Shown here: positions 48,816 to 53,800 of the stretch, piece by piece
Position numbering within the stretch: position 1 is the first letter of the stretch
How the letters are laid out: each line of letters opens with the position of its first letter
The notes under the pieces: generated by a model
Seen by the model: only the letters and a program-made list of their open reading frames with translations
The model's database searches: none
What the model was told of the DNA's origin: nothing
NCBI GenBank assembly: GCA_027532905.1
Contig: JAPZUA010000002.1
Location: 62,001-126,000 of the forward strand
From: Magnetospirillum sp.
GTDB taxonomy: Bacteria > Pseudomonadota > Alphaproteobacteria > CACIAM-22H2
DNA: 64,000 bases
Direction: 5' to 3'
Program-made: the position numbers and the translations under genes

Positions 48816-49066
48816 GCCGCACCGCCCGAAATAGGCGACATCGGGCGACAAAGGGCAACCATCGGCGACCTCTGCAACCTATATTCAAGCTGCTGAATCC
48901 GCGCGAGAAAACCACGATTCTGGGGGCTCGGTAACCTCAATTTCGCTGTCGCCAAAACCACGTTCTTCGATCCTTTTTGCCGTCGGCCAACCGACAAAAA
49001 GCATAGCAGAACAGACATAGAATTTCCAGCCGCAGCACCTATCGCGCGGCAGCGCCCTGCCGACGC

Positions 49067-49888
49067 TTAAAGGAACAGACCAAGCAGCACGTTCGGCTGC
49101 TGATTGGCGATCGCAAGCGACTGCACGCCGAGCAGCTGGCGCACCTGTTGCGCCTGCACAAGGGCGGCGGCCTTGCCGATATCGGCATCGACGATGGCGC
49201 CGAGGCCCGTAGTTGTCGCGTCCACGATCGCGTTCACGAAGTTCGACTGCAGCGCGAGCGTGCGCGTGTCGGCAGCACTGGCGCCGAGCGACGTCGCCAC
49301 GGCCTGCTGGAAGGTCGAGAGATCGTTGAGCGAATTGGCGGCCGCCGAGGCCGACGTGATGACCGCGGCCCCCGTGAAGGTCGTGAAGGCGGCACCGACC
49401 GTCGACTGGCTCGAGATGGTCAGCGTCGCGGCGTTCGTGTCGGCGAGGAACGTCTTGCTAGTCGATGCGGCCGACAGAAGATTGACGCTATTGTAGTTGG
49501 CTTGGGCGATGAAATTGCTGATCTGCGAGGTCAGCGCGTTGAAGTCGCCCGTGTAGATCGTGCGCTGGTCGCTCGAGATCGAGCCGTCGGCAAGCTGGGT
49601 GATCTTGGCCTGCATGTTGCCGATCAGATCGGAGATGTTGGTGAGTGCTGCTTGCGTAACCGAGCCCAGCCCAGCACCGCTCGCGAGCGAGCCTTGGATC
49701 GCCGTATAGGATTGCAGATTGGCGCGGATACCCTGGGCCACCGAAAAAGTCGAGGCATCGTCGGCCGCGTCGGCCACACGGTAGCCGGTCTGCATCTGCT
49801 TGGAGGCGGAATCGAGCGAGATCTGGGTTACGCGCAGCGAAGCGAGTGCCGTAAAGGCCCCGACATTCGTATTGATCGAATTCGCCAT
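49067..49888 (-). CDS. Flagellin, copy 1 (short type, 273 residues)
   Basis: A protein of 273 residues made of the N-terminal (MANSINTNVGAFTALASLRV, then TQISLDSASKQMQTGYRVAD) and C-terminal D0/D1 flagellin helices, joined by a short variable part of about 60 residues. There is almost no D2/D3 domain. The C terminus (AQQVRQLLGVQSLAIANQQP) packs in the filament core. It is exported by the flagellar type III system without a signal peptide. It is the last of three tandem, equal-length paralogues, with its own promoter, leader hairpin and AGAAAGGGACC ribosome site. Confidence 0.92.
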   Translation of the reverse strand: MANSINTNVGAFTALASLRVTQISLDSASKQMQTGYRVADAADDASTFSVAQGIRANLQSYTAIQGSLASGAGLGSVTQAALTNISDLIGNMQAKITQLADGSISSDQRTIYTGDFNALTSQISNFIAQANYNSVNLLSAASTSKTFLADTNAATLTISSQSTVGAAFTTFTGAAVITSASAAANSLNDLSTFQQAVATSLGASAADTRTLALQSNFVNAIVDATTTGLGAIVDADIGKAAALVQAQQVRQLLGVQSLAIANQQPNVLLGLFL

Positions 49889-49917
49889 TTGATTGGTCCC
49901 TTTCTGGCCGGTGCAGT

Positions 49918-49933
49918 GTCGGCTTCTGCCGAC
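49918..49933 (-). ncRNA. Leader hairpin of flagellin copy 1 (AGAA loop)
   Basis: On the mRNA strand the stem GUCGGC/GCCGAC closes an AGAA loop, ending 29 nt before the AUG. The same loop at the same position is present before both other flagellin genes with different stem bases, so the structure is conserved and not only the sequence. This is a cis-acting RNA element, not a separate transcript. A role in translational control or message stability is inferred. Confidence 0.6.
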
Positions 49934-49986
49934 GCCGGTATTGCGCGTTTCGCACGCGGCAGGGTGCTAATCCCGCCGGGCACGCC

Positions 49987-50000
49987 GACTTCGCCAAGTC
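49987..50000. promoter_or_regulatory. Inverted repeat GACTT-CGCC-AAGTC upstream of flagellin copy 1
   Basis: A perfect 5-bp stem with a 4-base loop, 98 bp upstream of the start and about 15-30 nt after the predicted transcription start. The identical 14 bases occur 96 bp before flagellin copy 2. It may be a regulator site or a second leader hairpin. Confidence 0.5.
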
Positions 50001-50021
50001 CGCGCAAGACCGATTGCAACC

Positions 50022-50050
50022 ATAATAAATTTGTTTACCTTACAATTCAA
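50022..50050 (-). promoter_or_regulatory. Promoter of flagellin copy 1
   Basis: On the minus strand TTGAAT (50050-50045) and TATTAT (50027-50022) are 17 bp apart, a good vegetative-sigma promoter that would give a leader of about 127 nt. It lies in a markedly AT-rich stretch just after a terminator. No sigma-28 or sigma-54 consensus was found. Confidence 0.55.
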
Positions 50051-50051
50051 G

Positions 50052-50071
50052 AAAAACCGCAAATCTTGCGG
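50052..50071 (-). terminator. Rho-independent terminator upstream of flagellin copy 1
   Basis: On the minus strand CCGCAA-GAT-TTGCGG is followed by TTTTTC. It is the second of two terminators after flagellin copy 2 and insulates copy 1. Confidence 0.7.
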
Positions 50072-50162
50072 TCAAAAAATACACAAAATATGGTTAACGT
50101 AAAATAATTTCATTTGTATTTTGAATTCGCAAATTGCATGGACATCGCCGGACGAACCCACG

Positions 50163-50207
50163 AAAAAAACGCAAAAGGCACACGATTTTGGAACACCGCG
50201 TGCCTTT
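50163..50207 (-). terminator. Terminator of flagellin copy 2
   Basis: Arms AAAGGCAC (50174-50181) and GTGCCTTT (50200-50207), extendable by three more pairs with one mismatch, form a long stem. On the minus strand it is followed by TTTTGCG and seven Ts. It begins 14 bp after the stop codon of copy 2. Confidence 0.75.
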
Positions 50208-50220
50208 CGGCCGGCAGGCC

Positions 50221-51042
50221 TTACCGGAACAGCCCGAGCAGCACGGTGGGCTGCTGGTTGGCGATCGCAAGCGACTGGATGCCGAGCTGCTGGCGCACCT
50301 GCTGCGCCTGCACGAGGGCGGCGGCTTTGCCGATATCGGCATCGACGATGGCGCCGAGCCCCGTTGTGGTCGCATCCACGATCGCATTGACGAAGTTCGA
50401 CTGCAGGGCAAGCGTGCGCGTTTCAGCCGCGTTGGCGCCGAGCGATGTGGCGACCGCCTGCTGGAAGGTCGACAGATCGTTGAGCGAATTGGCCGACGCC
50501 GACGCCGACGTGACGACGGCACCGGTGGCGAAAGTCGTAAACGCCGTGCCGACTGCGGCTTGGGTCGAGATGGTGAGCGTAGTCGCGTTGGTGTCGGACA
50601 GAAAGGTTTTGCTGGTCGAGCCGGTCGACAGCAGATTGACGCCGTTGTAGTTGGCTTGGGCGATGAAGTTGCTGACCTGCGAGGTCAGCGCGTTGAAATC
50701 GGCCGTGTAGATGGTGCGTTGGTTGGCGGAAATCGAACCGTCGGAAAGCTGCGTGATTTTGGCCTGCAGATTGCCGATCAGATCCGAGATGTTCGTGAGC
50801 GCTGCCTGCGTGACCGAGCCGAGGCCCACGCCGCTGGCAAGCGAACCTTGGATGGCCGTGTAAGCCTGCAGATTGGCGCGAATGCCCTGGGCCACCGAGA
50901 AGGTCGAGGCGTCGTCCGCCGCGTCGGCGACACGGTAGCCGGTCTGCACCTGTTTGGAGGCGACGTCGAGAGCGGTCTGAGTGATGCGCAGCGACGCAAG
51001 CGCCGTGTACGCGCCAACATTCGTGTTGACGGAATTCGCCAT
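50221..51042 (-). CDS. Flagellin, copy 2 (short type, 273 residues)
   Basis: A protein of 273 residues, nearly the same as copy 1 over the N-terminal 150 and C-terminal 60 residues (MANSVNTNVGAYTALASLRI; VRQQLGIQSLAIANQQPTVL), with changes mainly in the central segment. There is no D2/D3 domain. ATG 51042 has AGAAAGGGACC before it. Longer in-frame starts upstream run through the promoter and are rejected. Flanked by its own promoter and terminator, it is transcribed alone. Confidence 0.92.
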   Translation of the reverse strand: MANSVNTNVGAYTALASLRITQTALDVASKQVQTGYRVADAADDASTFSVAQGIRANLQAYTAIQGSLASGVGLGSVTQAALTNISDLIGNLQAKITQLSDGSISANQRTIYTADFNALTSQVSNFIAQANYNGVNLLSTGSTSKTFLSDTNATTLTISTQAAVGTAFTTFATGAVVTSASASANSLNDLSTFQQAVATSLGANAAETRTLALQSNFVNAIVDATTTGLGAIVDADIGKAAALVQAQQVRQQLGIQSLAIANQQPTVLLGLFR

Positions 51043-51072
51043 TGGTCTGGTCCCTTTCTGGTCGTCGCGGTT

Positions 51073-51084
51073 CGGCTTCTGCCG
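51073..51084 (-). ncRNA. Leader hairpin of flagellin copy 2 (AGAA loop)
   Basis: On the mRNA strand CGGC/GCCG closes the same AGAA loop, ending 30 nt before the AUG. The stem is only 4 bp here because the two outer pairs found in copy 1 are lost. It is a cis element of the flagellin message. Confidence 0.5.
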
Positions 51085-51138
51085 GTTCCAGTTCCCTACG
51101 CTTCGTACAATCCAGGGATAATCCCTGTATCGCCCGCT

Positions 51139-51152
51139 GACTTCGCCAAGTC
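51139..51152. promoter_or_regulatory. Inverted repeat GACTT-CGCC-AAGTC upstream of flagellin copy 2
   Basis: The 14 bases, plus CGC after them, are identical to the element before copy 1, and the distance to the start codon differs by only 2 bp. The region around it is otherwise diverged, which argues for selection. Confidence 0.5.
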
Positions 51153-51173
51153 CGCAAGAAACCAAACGCCACA

Positions 51174-51202
51174 AATCTGCGGCAGGTTGCAAAAAGAATC
51201 AA
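51174..51202 (-). promoter_or_regulatory. Probable promoter of flagellin copy 2
   Basis: TTGATT and CAGATT on the minus strand are 17 bp apart and lie at the same distance from the shared inverted repeat as the promoter of copy 1. The -10 match is poor, so a weaker or activated promoter is likely. Confidence 0.35.
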
Positions 51203-51280
51203 GCAGATTCGATATTTCTTTGCGTATATTCGCGACGATCGCAGGCGCTTGAGGCAGTACAGGCCCTGAAAAAGGGCATG

Positions 51281-51305
51281 CGAAAACCGTCGCCTGAAAG
51301 GCGAC
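51281..51305 (-). terminator. Terminator of flagellin copy 3
   Basis: On the minus strand GTCGCCT-TTC-AGGCGAC, a perfect 7-bp stem, is followed by GGTTTTCG. A second short hairpin (GCCCT/AGGGC) follows at 51263-51277. It begins 40 bp after the copy 3 stop codon. Confidence 0.65.
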
Positions 51306-51345
51306 AGTAGAACGCGTGAGCAATCTTAAATTATGCCGGCTCGCC

Positions 51346-52167
51346 TCAGCGGAACAGACCGAGCAGGGCGCTTGGCTGCTGGTTGGCGATCGACAGCGAT
51401 TGCACGCCGAGCTGTTGGCGCACCTGCTGGGCCTGGACGGCGGCCGCGGCCCGGCCGATATCGGCATCGACGCTGGCGCCGAGGCCGGTCGCGACGGAAT
51501 CGACGACTTGGTTGATGAAGTTCGACTGCAGCGTCAGCGCGCGCGCTTCCGAGGCGTTGGCGCCGAGCGACGTCGATACGGCCTGCTGGAAGGTAGAGAG
51601 CGACCCGAGGGCGGCGGCCGCATCGGACGCGCTCGCCACGCTTGCGGCACCTGTGAAGGTCGTAAAGGCTGCATCGACCGACGACTGCGCCGTTAGGGTC
51701 AGCGATGTCGCATTGGTGTCGCTGAGGAAGGTCTTGGCGGTCGAACCCGCCGACAGGAGATTGCTGCCGTTGTAGCTCGCCTGGCTAATGAAATTCGCGA
51801 CCTGGGAGGTCAGCGCGTTGAAGTCGCTCGTGTAGATGGCGCGTTGATTGGCGGAGATCGATCCGTCGGCGAGCTGCGTGATTTTGGACTGCAGATTGCC
51901 CACGAGATCCGAAACGTTGGTGAGGGCGGCTTGCGTGACCGCACCCAAGCCCACACCGTTGGCAAGCGAGCCTTGCACGGCCGTGTAGGCCTGCAGATTG
52001 GCGCGAATGCCCTGCGCCACCGAGAAGGTCGAGGCGTCGTCGGAGGCGTCGGCAACGCGGTAGCCGGTCTGGACCTGTTTGGAGGCCGTGTCGAGATTGG
52101 TTTGCGTCGTTCGCAGCGACGCCAAGGCGACATATGCCGCGGAATTCGTATTGACGGAATTCGCCAT
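51346..52167 (-). CDS. Flagellin, copy 3 (short type, 273 residues)
   Basis: A protein of 273 residues, the most diverged of the three (MANSVNTNSAAYVALASLRT; central ASVASASDAAAALGSLSTFQ), yet with the same domain boundaries and no D2/D3. It is the upstream-most copy of the tandem array. CAGAAGGGACC precedes ATG 52167. Its leader has the AGAA-loop hairpin but lacks the GACTT-type inverted repeat of copies 1 and 2, so it may be controlled differently. Confidence 0.92.
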   Translation of the reverse strand: MANSVNTNSAAYVALASLRTTQTNLDTASKQVQTGYRVADASDDASTFSVAQGIRANLQAYTAVQGSLANGVGLGAVTQAALTNVSDLVGNLQSKITQLADGSISANQRAIYTSDFNALTSQVANFISQASYNGSNLLSAGSTAKTFLSDTNATSLTLTAQSSVDAAFTTFTGAASVASASDAAAALGSLSTFQQAVSTSLGANASEARALTLQSNFINQVVDSVATGLGASVDADIGRAAAAVQAQQVRQQLGVQSLSIANQQPSALLGLFR

Positions 52168-52196
52168 CGAACCGGTCCCTTCTGGTCAAGCGCATC

Positions 52197-52212
52197 CTCG
52201 ACTTCTGTCGAG
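52197..52212 (-). ncRNA. Leader hairpin of flagellin copy 3 (AGAA loop)
   Basis: On the mRNA strand CUCGAC/GUCGAG closes an AGAA loop, ending 29 nt before the AUG. Against copy 1 (GUCGGC/GCCGAC), stem positions change on both arms together, which is covariation. It is a cis element of the flagellin message. Confidence 0.6.
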
Positions 52213-52274
52213 ACCGGGAAATTTACATCGACGTCGGCCAGCCTTGCCGCGCGCGCAGGTTCCCAAGTTCCATA

Positions 52275-52303
52275 ACGTTAGCGAATTTTCGTGGCCGTTT
52301 CAA
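52275..52303 (-). promoter_or_regulatory. Possible promoter of flagellin copy 3
   Basis: TTGAAA and TAACGT on the minus strand with 17 bp between. The -35 is good and the -10 weak. It would give a leader of about 100 nt that includes the hairpin. Confidence 0.3.
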
Positions 52304-52336
52304 GCACTTTTTCTAATGCTGGGTTTGAGCGCGATC

Positions 52337-53800
52337 TCAGCCGATTCCGGGCACGACTTTGCCGGGGTTCAGGATGTTGTTGGGGTCGAAGCTGCGTTTG
52401 AGCGTGCGCATCATCTCGAGGGCGACCGGGTCTTTGTAGCGCACGAGATATTCGCGCTTGAGCTGGCCAATGCCGTGTTCTGCCGAGATCGAACCGGAGA
52501 GCTCGGCGACGAGATCGTGCACCGCATCGTTCATCGTGTGGCGCAAAGCCATGAAGGCGTCGCGGTCGCTTGCTTCCGGCTGGCTCACGTTGAAATGGAT
52601 GTTGCCGTCGCCGGCATGGCCGAAGGCGCATACGCGCACGCCCGGCACCATCGCCTCGCAGAGTGCGGTTGCGCGCGACAGAAAGGTCGGCACGGAAGAG
52701 ACGGGGACGGACACGTCGTGCTTGATCGATCCGCCCTCGTGCTTCTGCGCCTCGGTCATGCTCTCGCGCAGTTTCCACAAAGCTTTGCGCTGCGCGTCCG
52801 AACTTGCCACGGCCGCATCGAGCACGAGCCCGTCTTCAAGCGCCTGTTCGAGCAGGCGCTCGACCATGTCTTTGAGCGCGCCGCCGATGTCGCCCGACGC
52901 GAATTCGATCAGCACGTACCAGGCATGTTTTTCGGCGAGCGGATCGACCGTGCCCGGAATATGTGCGAGCACAAAATCGATGAGGCGGCGCTGCGTGAGT
53001 TCGAAAGCGACGCAAGAGCCCCCACTTTGGCTCTTGGCACGCTGCAGCAATTCGATCGCGGCTGCGGGCGAGGGGACGGCGACAAAACATGTCTGCGTTT
53101 CGCGCGGTGCCGGGAAGAGTTTGAGCACGGCGGCCGTCACGATGCCGAGCGTGCCCTCCGCCCCCAAAAAGAGCTGCTTCAAATCGTAGCCTGTATTGTC
53201 CTTGCGCAAGCCCTTCAATGACGACCAGATGCGCCCATCGGCCAGCACGACCTCGAGACCCAGCACGAGGTCGCGCGCCATGCCGTAGCGCAGCACGCCG
53301 ATTCCGCCGGCATTGGTCGAAAGATTGCCGCCGATCTGGCACGTGCCTTCGGCCGCCAGCGACAGCGGGAACAGCCGGTCGGCGGATGCGGCGGCGTTTT
53401 GGATGTCGGCCAAAATACACCCGGCTTCGACGGTAATTGTGTCGTTGGCGGCATCGAGGCTGCGGATCTTGTTGAGGCGCTGCAGCGACAGCACGATCTC
53501 GGTGCCGGTTGCATGCGGGATACCGCCGCCGACCAGCCCCGTATTGCCGCCCTGGGGGACGACGGCAATGCCCGACGCGTTGCATTCGGCAAGAATTTCA
53601 GAAACTTGGGTCAGGTCTGCGGGCCGCAGCACGGCCGCCGCCCGGCCCACATAGAGGCCGCGCTCTTCCTTCTCGAAACGCACCATGTCGGCACGATTTT
53701 CGATCCAGCCGCTGGGGCCGACGATGGCGCGCAAGCGCGCCAGATTGTCGTGCGAAGGTGGGAGAGAAGCGCGGCGGGAATCGTCGGGCGGCGGGCTCAT
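52337..53800 (-). CDS. FAD-linked oxidase of the GlcD/D-2-hydroxyglutarate dehydrogenase type
   Basis: A protein of 487 residues. The FAD_binding_4 domain shows VVPQGGNTGLVGGGIPH and GGNLSTNAGGIGVLRYG, and the C-terminal domain AFGHAGDGNIHFNVSQP with the metal-binding His pair and SAEHGIGQLKREYL. It oxidises D-2-hydroxyacids such as D-2-hydroxyglutarate, D-lactate or glycolate. No Fe-S partner (GlcF) is adjacent, which favours the stand-alone D-2-hydroxyglutarate dehydrogenase type. It follows the MFS gene on the same strand after 190 bp that hold a strong inverted repeat. Confidence 0.88.
   Translation of the reverse strand: MSPPPDDSRRASLPPSHDNLARLRAIVGPSGWIENRADMVRFEKEERGLYVGRAAAVLRPADLTQVSEILAECNASGIAVVPQGGNTGLVGGGIPHATGTEIVLSLQRLNKIRSLDAANDTITVEAGCILADIQNAAASADRLFPLSLAAEGTCQIGGNLSTNAGGIGVLRYGMARDLVLGLEVVLADGRIWSSLKGLRKDNTGYDLKQLFLGAEGTLGIVTAAVLKLFPAPRETQTCFVAVPSPAAAIELLQRAKSQSGGSCVAFELTQRRLIDFVLAHIPGTVDPLAEKHAWYVLIEFASGDIGGALKDMVERLLEQALEDGLVLDAAVASSDAQRKALWKLRESMTEAQKHEGGSIKHDVSVPVSSVPTFLSRATALCEAMVPGVRVCAFGHAGDGNIHFNVSQPEASDRDAFMALRHTMNDAVHDLVAELSGSISAEHGIGQLKREYLVRYKDPVALEMMRTLKRSFDPNNILNPGKVVPGIG

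Follow-up and report, generated by a model that had tools for sequence, protein, structure and literature searches.

The window analyzed here, a stretch of 64,000 nucleotides (nt) of Magnetospirillum sp. DNA (contig JAPZUA010000002.1, positions 62,001 to 126,000 of the forward strand), contains three flagellin genes, the leaders of which each carry a hairpin with an AGAA loop and a second AGAA on the Shine-Dalgarno (SD) sequence. Judging from sequence comparisons, this leader is probably a two-site translational operator that is read by FlbT and controls the translation of flagellin. The upstream hairpin, with a loop of AGAA or AGAAN, or of AAAAN in other lineages, would anchor an FlbT dimer or oligomer, and the bridging of this site and the second AGAA on the SD would block ribosome access until hook completion. 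As in Caulobacter, by analogy, a specialized flagellin bound to FlbT would serve as a co-repressor, the export of which would lift the block. We infer the contact with FlbT and its stoichiometry, the repression, the co-repressor step, and the role of the exceptional flagellin.

Structure of the leader element

The three hairpins were read off the sequence on the minus strand, which is that of the mRNA, at the positions at which the original prediction had placed them: GUCGGC-AGAA-GCCGAC at 49918..49933, CGGC-AGAA-GCCG at 51073..51084, and CUCGAC-AGAA-GUCGAG at 52197..52212, separated from AUG by 29, 30, and 29 nt, respectively (A of AUG at 49888, 51042, and 52167). They precede, on the same strand, flagellin 1 (MANSINTNVGAF, an open reading frame (ORF) of 273 aa at 49067..49888; Flagellin_N, E 8.6e-19), flagellin 2 (MANSVNTNVGAY, 50221..51042 with its start at 51042; Flagellin_N, E 1.2e-19), and flagellin 3 (MANSVNTNSAAY, an ORF of 273 aa at 51346..52167; Flagellin_N, E 2.4e-21). 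The second AGAA is located directly on the SD in all three leaders, as CCAGAAAGGGACC or CCAGAAGGGACC, namely CC-AGAA-AGGG at 49898..49907, where it occupies conserved columns of alignment A6, CC-AGAA-AGGG at 51052..51061, and CC-AGAA-GGG at 52177..52185.

The claim that the hairpin is a selected RNA structure was borne out and is supported by several comparisons. Among 23 leaders from the genus, five of the six stem pairs were altered on both sides, the AGAA loop and the closing C-G pair were invariant, and 91% of cells paired, a figure that is inflated by the preselection of these leaders for a stem of at least 4 pairs. The covariation score of the same leaders was 0.603, versus 0.212 in shuffles (none of 500 reached 0.603) and 0.118 or less when slid. 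An arm-swap test, which is free of this preselection, was performed on 67 distinct arm pairs of family f1 picked by loop alone; the mean stem was 4.76 with the own arms and 1.74 with swapped arms, and the highest of 300 swaps was 2.36. The loop was also strand-specific, being found in the sense orientation in 62 of 125 f1 leaders and in the antisense orientation, i.e., the same palindrome on the other strand, in one; the corresponding counts were 37 and 2 of 153 leaders in other FlbT-positive genomes, and 35 and 1 of 72 in family f64. Regarding placement, 53 of 60 f1 loops ended 32-40 nt from AUG, and the two AGAA were separated by 15-20 nt in 54 of 57 f1 leaders.

Occurrence in the genome and genus

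The genome to which the window belongs (G000; 4.26 Mb, 13 contigs, 95.68% complete, with the window on contig C2) contained ten flagellin matches, nine of which had leaders in which a hairpin of at least 4 stem pairs and an AGAA(N) loop was present 26-45 nt upstream of the start, while the rate expected by chance from dinucleotide shuffles was 0.006 per leader. The loop was the 4-base AGAA in seven leaders and a 5-base form, AGAA with one additional base, in two leaders on contig C10. The second site varied to UUCC-AGAA-GGAA and CCU-AGAA-AGG in other leaders of this genome, and the leader at C10:378 had CCAAAAACC at the SD in place of AGAA. The sole leader without the element was that of the flagellin at C2:865594. 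Since six of the ten matches were near contig ends (the start and end of C1, the ends of C7 and C6, and the start of C10 among these), the assembly was probably interrupted at flagellin repeats, and flagellins may be undercounted.

The flbT gene of this genome (PF07378, E 5.8e-32, G000:C3:3470-3838) and two flaF genes were found in one flagellar cluster on contig C3 (L013, G000:C3:1-16000), in agreement with the earlier remark that neither gene is present in the window. Neither a PF02599 match, which would represent csrA, nor fliW was found in this 95.68% complete assembly. By eye, the ORFs of L013 also include hook and hook-associated proteins as well as glycosyltransferase-like ORFs with tetratricopeptide repeats (TPR), and the latter might be flagellin glycosylation genes similar to FlmG of Caulobacter.

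As had been proposed as a check on the hairpin, a covariance model, R1, was built from the genus leaders and searched over 11 whole genomes. Among the 34 matches with E<=1e-5, 33 directly preceded the start of a listed flagellin, and the remaining match was at a contig end. The window hairpins were matched with E 1.1e-9 (49918; G000:C2:111889-111936), 8.3e-8 (51073; G000:C2:113043-113089), and 1.3e-8 (52197; G000:C2:114167-114215). G000 gave seven good matches, all of which were flagellin leaders, with the next match at E 0.128, and the two leaders with 5-base loops were missed. This result speaks for specificity and not for sensitivity because R1 was trained on such leaders and scored 150 of approximately 900-1600 candidates per genome. 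Outside G000, the share of flagellin leaders with the hairpin ranged among the genomes of the genus from 5/6 down to 0/3.

Distribution over the class

FlbT, CsrA, and FliW were scored in a class sample of 240 genomes and were found in 81, 48, and 41 genomes, respectively. FlbT co-occurred with CsrA in two genomes (16.2 expected) and with FliW in none (13.8 expected), while CsrA and FliW co-occurred in 37, with the reservation that these genomes are kin and, thus, the class counts are not independent events. The two genomes with both FlbT and CsrA were G087 and G208, and the two leaders of the latter both have AGAA at the SD.

Leaders were scanned for hairpins with loops of 4-5 bases closed by a G-C pair on a stem of at least 4 pairs. 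In family f1, 125 of 126 leaders were used. The class set of 164 places was drawn from one full list and from the FlbT-positive places among 150 listed rows of another; nine places contributed no usable leader, leaving 155 leaders, 153 of them distinct, from 69 of the 73 genomes outside f1 with FlbT and flagellin. The FlbT-negative set of 30 and 36 places yielded 29 and 33 leaders, 60 of which were distinct. In family f64, which was taken to be near Caulobacteraceae on the basis of FlbT similarity, 12 weak or partial matches were excluded, and 72 of the remaining 73 leaders were taken. Start codons were chosen by a script, and tblastn starts, which are often wrong, were used for named examples only; doubtful starts remain in G031, G053, and G210. 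In G031, which is 63% complete and in which neither FlbT, CsrA, nor FliW was found, CCAGAAUGGAG is seen by eye ahead of a better start.

Loops of the A(A/G)AA type were present in 62/125 leaders of f1 (1.9 in shuffled sequences), in 37/153 of the other FlbT-positive genomes (shuffled 2.3), and in 35/72 of f64 (shuffled 0.65; 21 of 24 genomes), versus 0/43 in the CsrA- or FliW-positive genomes and 1/17 in the genomes that had neither FlbT, CsrA, nor FliW. Conversely, AGG(A/U) loops were found in 16/43 leaders of the CsrA- or FliW-positive genomes, and in 1/125, 5/153, 0/72, and 0/17 leaders of f1, the other FlbT-positive genomes, f64, and the genomes with none of the three, respectively. On the SD side, the same four groups had AGAA..GG in 71/125, 65/153, 30/72, and 3/17 leaders, and the CsrA- or FliW-positive genomes in 4/43; the motif A(A/U)GUAGGAG was at the SD in 13 of these 43 leaders and in one leader of all the remaining groups combined. 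GGA in the loop was at the shuffle level in f1 (10/125 leaders, shuffle mean 7.6). Examples of the FlbT-type arrangement are Phenylobacterium deserti (L336), in which AAAA-loop hairpins are combined with UCC-AGAAU-GGA, and Rhizomicrobium electricum (L339), in which hairpins of the AAAA type accompany CC-AGAAC-GG. According to this distribution, the flagellated Alphaproteobacteria are divided into users of FlbT and users of CsrA/FliW, and the leader codes of the two groups differ. An AGG(A/U)A-loop hairpin together with A(A/U)GUAGGAG at the SD was observed at L029, L033, L037, L379, L387, L388, and L389, which lack FlbT and have CsrA or FliW. The AGG(A/U)A-loop leaders of CsrA- or FliW-positive genomes are predicted to be CsrA targets.

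Relationship to known systems and alternative explanations

The closest parallel is the flaA leader of Campylobacter jejuni, which has two stem-loops in the 5' untranslated region (UTR) of a flagellin mRNA, the second over the ribosome-binding site, compensatory stem changes, and flagellin control by CsrA, with GGA motifs 21 nt apart and a spacing of approximately 18-21 nt (18-nt optimum), which is similar to the 15-20 nt found here (PMC4894983). A true CsrA site, bound by CsrA as in flaA, would account for this layout. Nevertheless, the loops are ANGGA in flaA and A(A/G)AA here, the anchor is a hexaloop there and has 4-5 nt here, and the SD-side stem is weaker in our leaders. This explanation was rejected, and we consider it extremely improbable, because no csrA was found in the 95.68% complete assembly of G000 and the loop is without GGA; the absence of fliW among the genes found in that genome, in which FlbT is present, and the AGG(A/U) loops of CsrA- or FliW-positive genomes also argue against it. 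Sites of the RsmE/CsrA type (ANGGAN) similarly share with our element a short hairpin and a fixed purine-rich loop, with dual-site bridging over 10-63 nt, and differ in the GGA core, which is not present here (PMC7652899). The original prediction had proposed an FlbT- or CsrA-like target. The FlbT part of this proposal is supported by distribution, since flbT is in the genome and the loop type tracks FlbT versus CsrA/FliW; CsrA as such is not supported. "CsrA-like" is still a fair description of the possible mode of action because of the two-site layout and the weak profile similarity between FlbT and CsrA described below. The flaA study itself suggested FlbT/FlaF as a possibly analogous system (PMC4894983).

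Inverted repeats also serve as protein sites, and transcription of the window hairpins is assumed; accordingly, the repeats may be read as palindromic DNA sites for a transcription factor or recombination instead of as an RNA structure. The strand specificity of the loop led us to reject this reading, which we regard as very improbable. Compensated stem variation around a fixed loop and the distance of the loops from AUG also argue against it, as do the sigma-54-like sites of the class set, which were upstream in 14 of 52 hairpin leaders and in 9 of these 14 were followed after 10-13 nt by the stem, i.e., about where the RNA should begin. Such sites accompanied the hairpin at scattered distances in 12/64 leaders of f1 and 3/42 of f64, and none were detected near the hairpins of G000, in which other promoter types were not tested. 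A general 5'-end stabilizer, RNase site, or ribosome stand-by hairpin acting without a specific protein would be in keeping with the ability of 5'-end hairpins to stabilize mRNA and with the usual abundance of flagellin mRNA; this was also rejected and appears unlikely, because loop invariance, the repetition of the loop sequence at the SD, and the link with FlbT-positive genomes would all be unnecessary for it. The element may instead be the target of another FlbT-linked protein, such as FlaF or an RNA-binding partner, and not of FlbT itself. G000 has two copies of flaF, and binding by purified FlbT may depend on additional factors. We find this alternative unlikely, considering that a role as a flagellin-binding secretion chaperone is described for FlaF (PMC7591256) and that FlbT is the protein reported to bind the flagellin 5' UTR (PMC4347634, PMC3930126).

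Several observations weigh against the hairpin or against an FlbT-read repressive operator. In the window, the stem at 51073 has 4 pairs only, the SD-side stem has 2 pairs, and the leaders at 51073 and 52197, folded singly, prefer another minimum-energy fold. The SD-side stem is also weak elsewhere, at 2.27 for own versus 1.73 for swapped arms in the family and 2.64 versus 1.94 in the class. Three weaker R1 matches (E 0.001-0.03) were located at a distance from the listed flagellins. Across the genus, the hairpin was present at 26-45 nt in 42 of 75 leaders, with none among the three leaders of G255, and these 33 exceptions are more than can be accounted for by a single co-repressor flagellin in each genome. 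The anchor hairpin, judged by the strict criterion, was found in 27 of the 69 FlbT-positive genomes outside f1, and the FlbT search itself extended to 3 of 23 genomes in f1 and to 1 of 25 in f64 (G063). Furthermore, FlbT of Brucella is described as promoting flagellin production, i.e., as an activator (PMC4347634, PMC8781033), and flbT of Agrobacterium was a hit in a screen for motility genes, which suits an activator (PMC9812332). The sign of FlbT control may differ by lineage because FlbT in Brucella has been described as an activator. A Phaeobacter flbT mutant was reported to be still motile.

Regarding translational control by FlbT, FlbT and FljJ co-repress the remaining flagellins in Caulobacter, a system that also has FlaF and several flagellins, one or more of which are exceptional; the same elements are present in f64, whereas the available text describes neither a consensus loop nor a second site at the SD nor a motif common to the class (PMC7591256). 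Reviews have called the mechanism of FlbT unresolved or unclear (PMC4347634, PMC3930126). We found no description of the AGAA two-site motif in the accessible literature on FlbT or the fljK leader, and some of it may already have been reported for Caulobacter in subscription papers. A search of Rfam with window positions 49000-53000 gave no match at the gathering score and one unrelated sub-threshold match, and four FlbT loci gave no match.

Resemblance of FlbT to CsrA and FliS

The AlphaFold model of Phenylobacterium FlbT (52 sequences) consists of five strands followed by four helices, with a mean predicted local distance difference test score (pLDDT) of 86.6. In hhalign comparisons, the first 38-43 aligned FlbT positions matched CsrA 2-49 (Prob 35-46%, P 2e-4 to 4e-4), and the score of 24.3 was above those of all 200 column-shuffled CsrA profiles (maximum 19.4). 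This alignment pairs GE with GE and the invariant R37 of FlbT with R44 of CsrA, which is described as a key RNA-binding residue (PMC7652899). When a CsrA profile was run against 12,926 ORFs, six of the eight best non-CsrA ORFs were FlbT and 120 FlbT had a median rank of 190 of 6,628 scored, and with an FlbT N-terminal profile, 22 CsrA ORFs had a median rank of 45 of 6,670; unrelated ORFs headed each list, and none of the individual E-values was significant. CsrA was not among the matches listed in other searches: the 18 Pfam families that 27 FlbT members matched with E<=1 did not include PF02599; a profile search of solved structures up to E 10 gave six weak matches to TPR proteins and a designed binder; Foldseek listed no CsrA chain among its matches for either the full model (best E 2.3) or the N-terminal model (pLDDT 81, predicted template-modelling score 0.45; best E 2.5); and the N-terminal model had no VIA match with Z >=2. 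Regarding the helical part, four FliS structures (3iqc, 3k1i, 1orj, and 1ory) were among the ten best, with 80-84 aligned positions, a root-mean-square deviation of 2.5-2.8, and Z 7.9-8.2, a range that helical bundles may reach without kinship.

The N-terminal part of FlbT, thus, weakly resembles CsrA by profile, and its C-terminal part perhaps resembles FliS in the model. With less than even confidence, we tentatively suggest that FlbT may be a diverged CsrA, in which a CsrA-type RNA-binding N-terminal half is joined to a FliS-like flagellin-binding half and which would have replaced CsrA and FliW in the FlbT lineages of Alphaproteobacteria. The leaders would have co-evolved between AGG(A/U) and A(A/G)AA two-site operators, with the operator code and regulator switching together.

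Exceptional flagellins and upstream sequences

One and the same flagellin, starting with LVASLSTSVNTN, is the sole one that lacks the element at 26-45 nt in G000, G128, and G256, and its counterpart in G257 has an AGAA hairpin nearer to the start. By analogy, the flagellin at C2:865594 may be an early, unrepressed flagellin. No ATG start was found near the N terminus of this flagellin (C2:865594-866001; L001, L016). In f64, flagellins starting like MTISVHTN.SAL, a class that was defined post hoc, had the hairpin in 4 of 17 leaders versus 38 of 55 of the others (p 0.0015), and a gene of this type is located approximately 3.6 kb downstream of flbT at L353, L356, L360, L368, and L374. The gene order in Caulobacter is flaF flbT fljL fljK fljJ; going by this order, the gene approximately 3.6 kb from flbT is presumably fljJ. 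A hairpin-poor fljJ fits because a flagellin that silences the others should not itself be silenced by the same element.

Further upstream in the window, flagellin 1 and flagellin 2 have in common, in their leaders, a stretch of GCGGACUUGGCGAAGUC(A/G)GCG at 49975-50010 and 51125-51160, approximately 100 nt before AUG. It forms a small inverted repeat, has similar counterparts in G128 and G256, and may represent a promoter or an element of the 5' end.

Implications

The leader element described here supplies a concrete and testable RNA target for FlbT, consisting of two A(A/G)AA sites, one of which is on the SD, and natural variants as well as natural exceptions exist for this target. The split of the class into two leader codes, moreover, represents a route to asking whether FlbT is a relative of CsrA.

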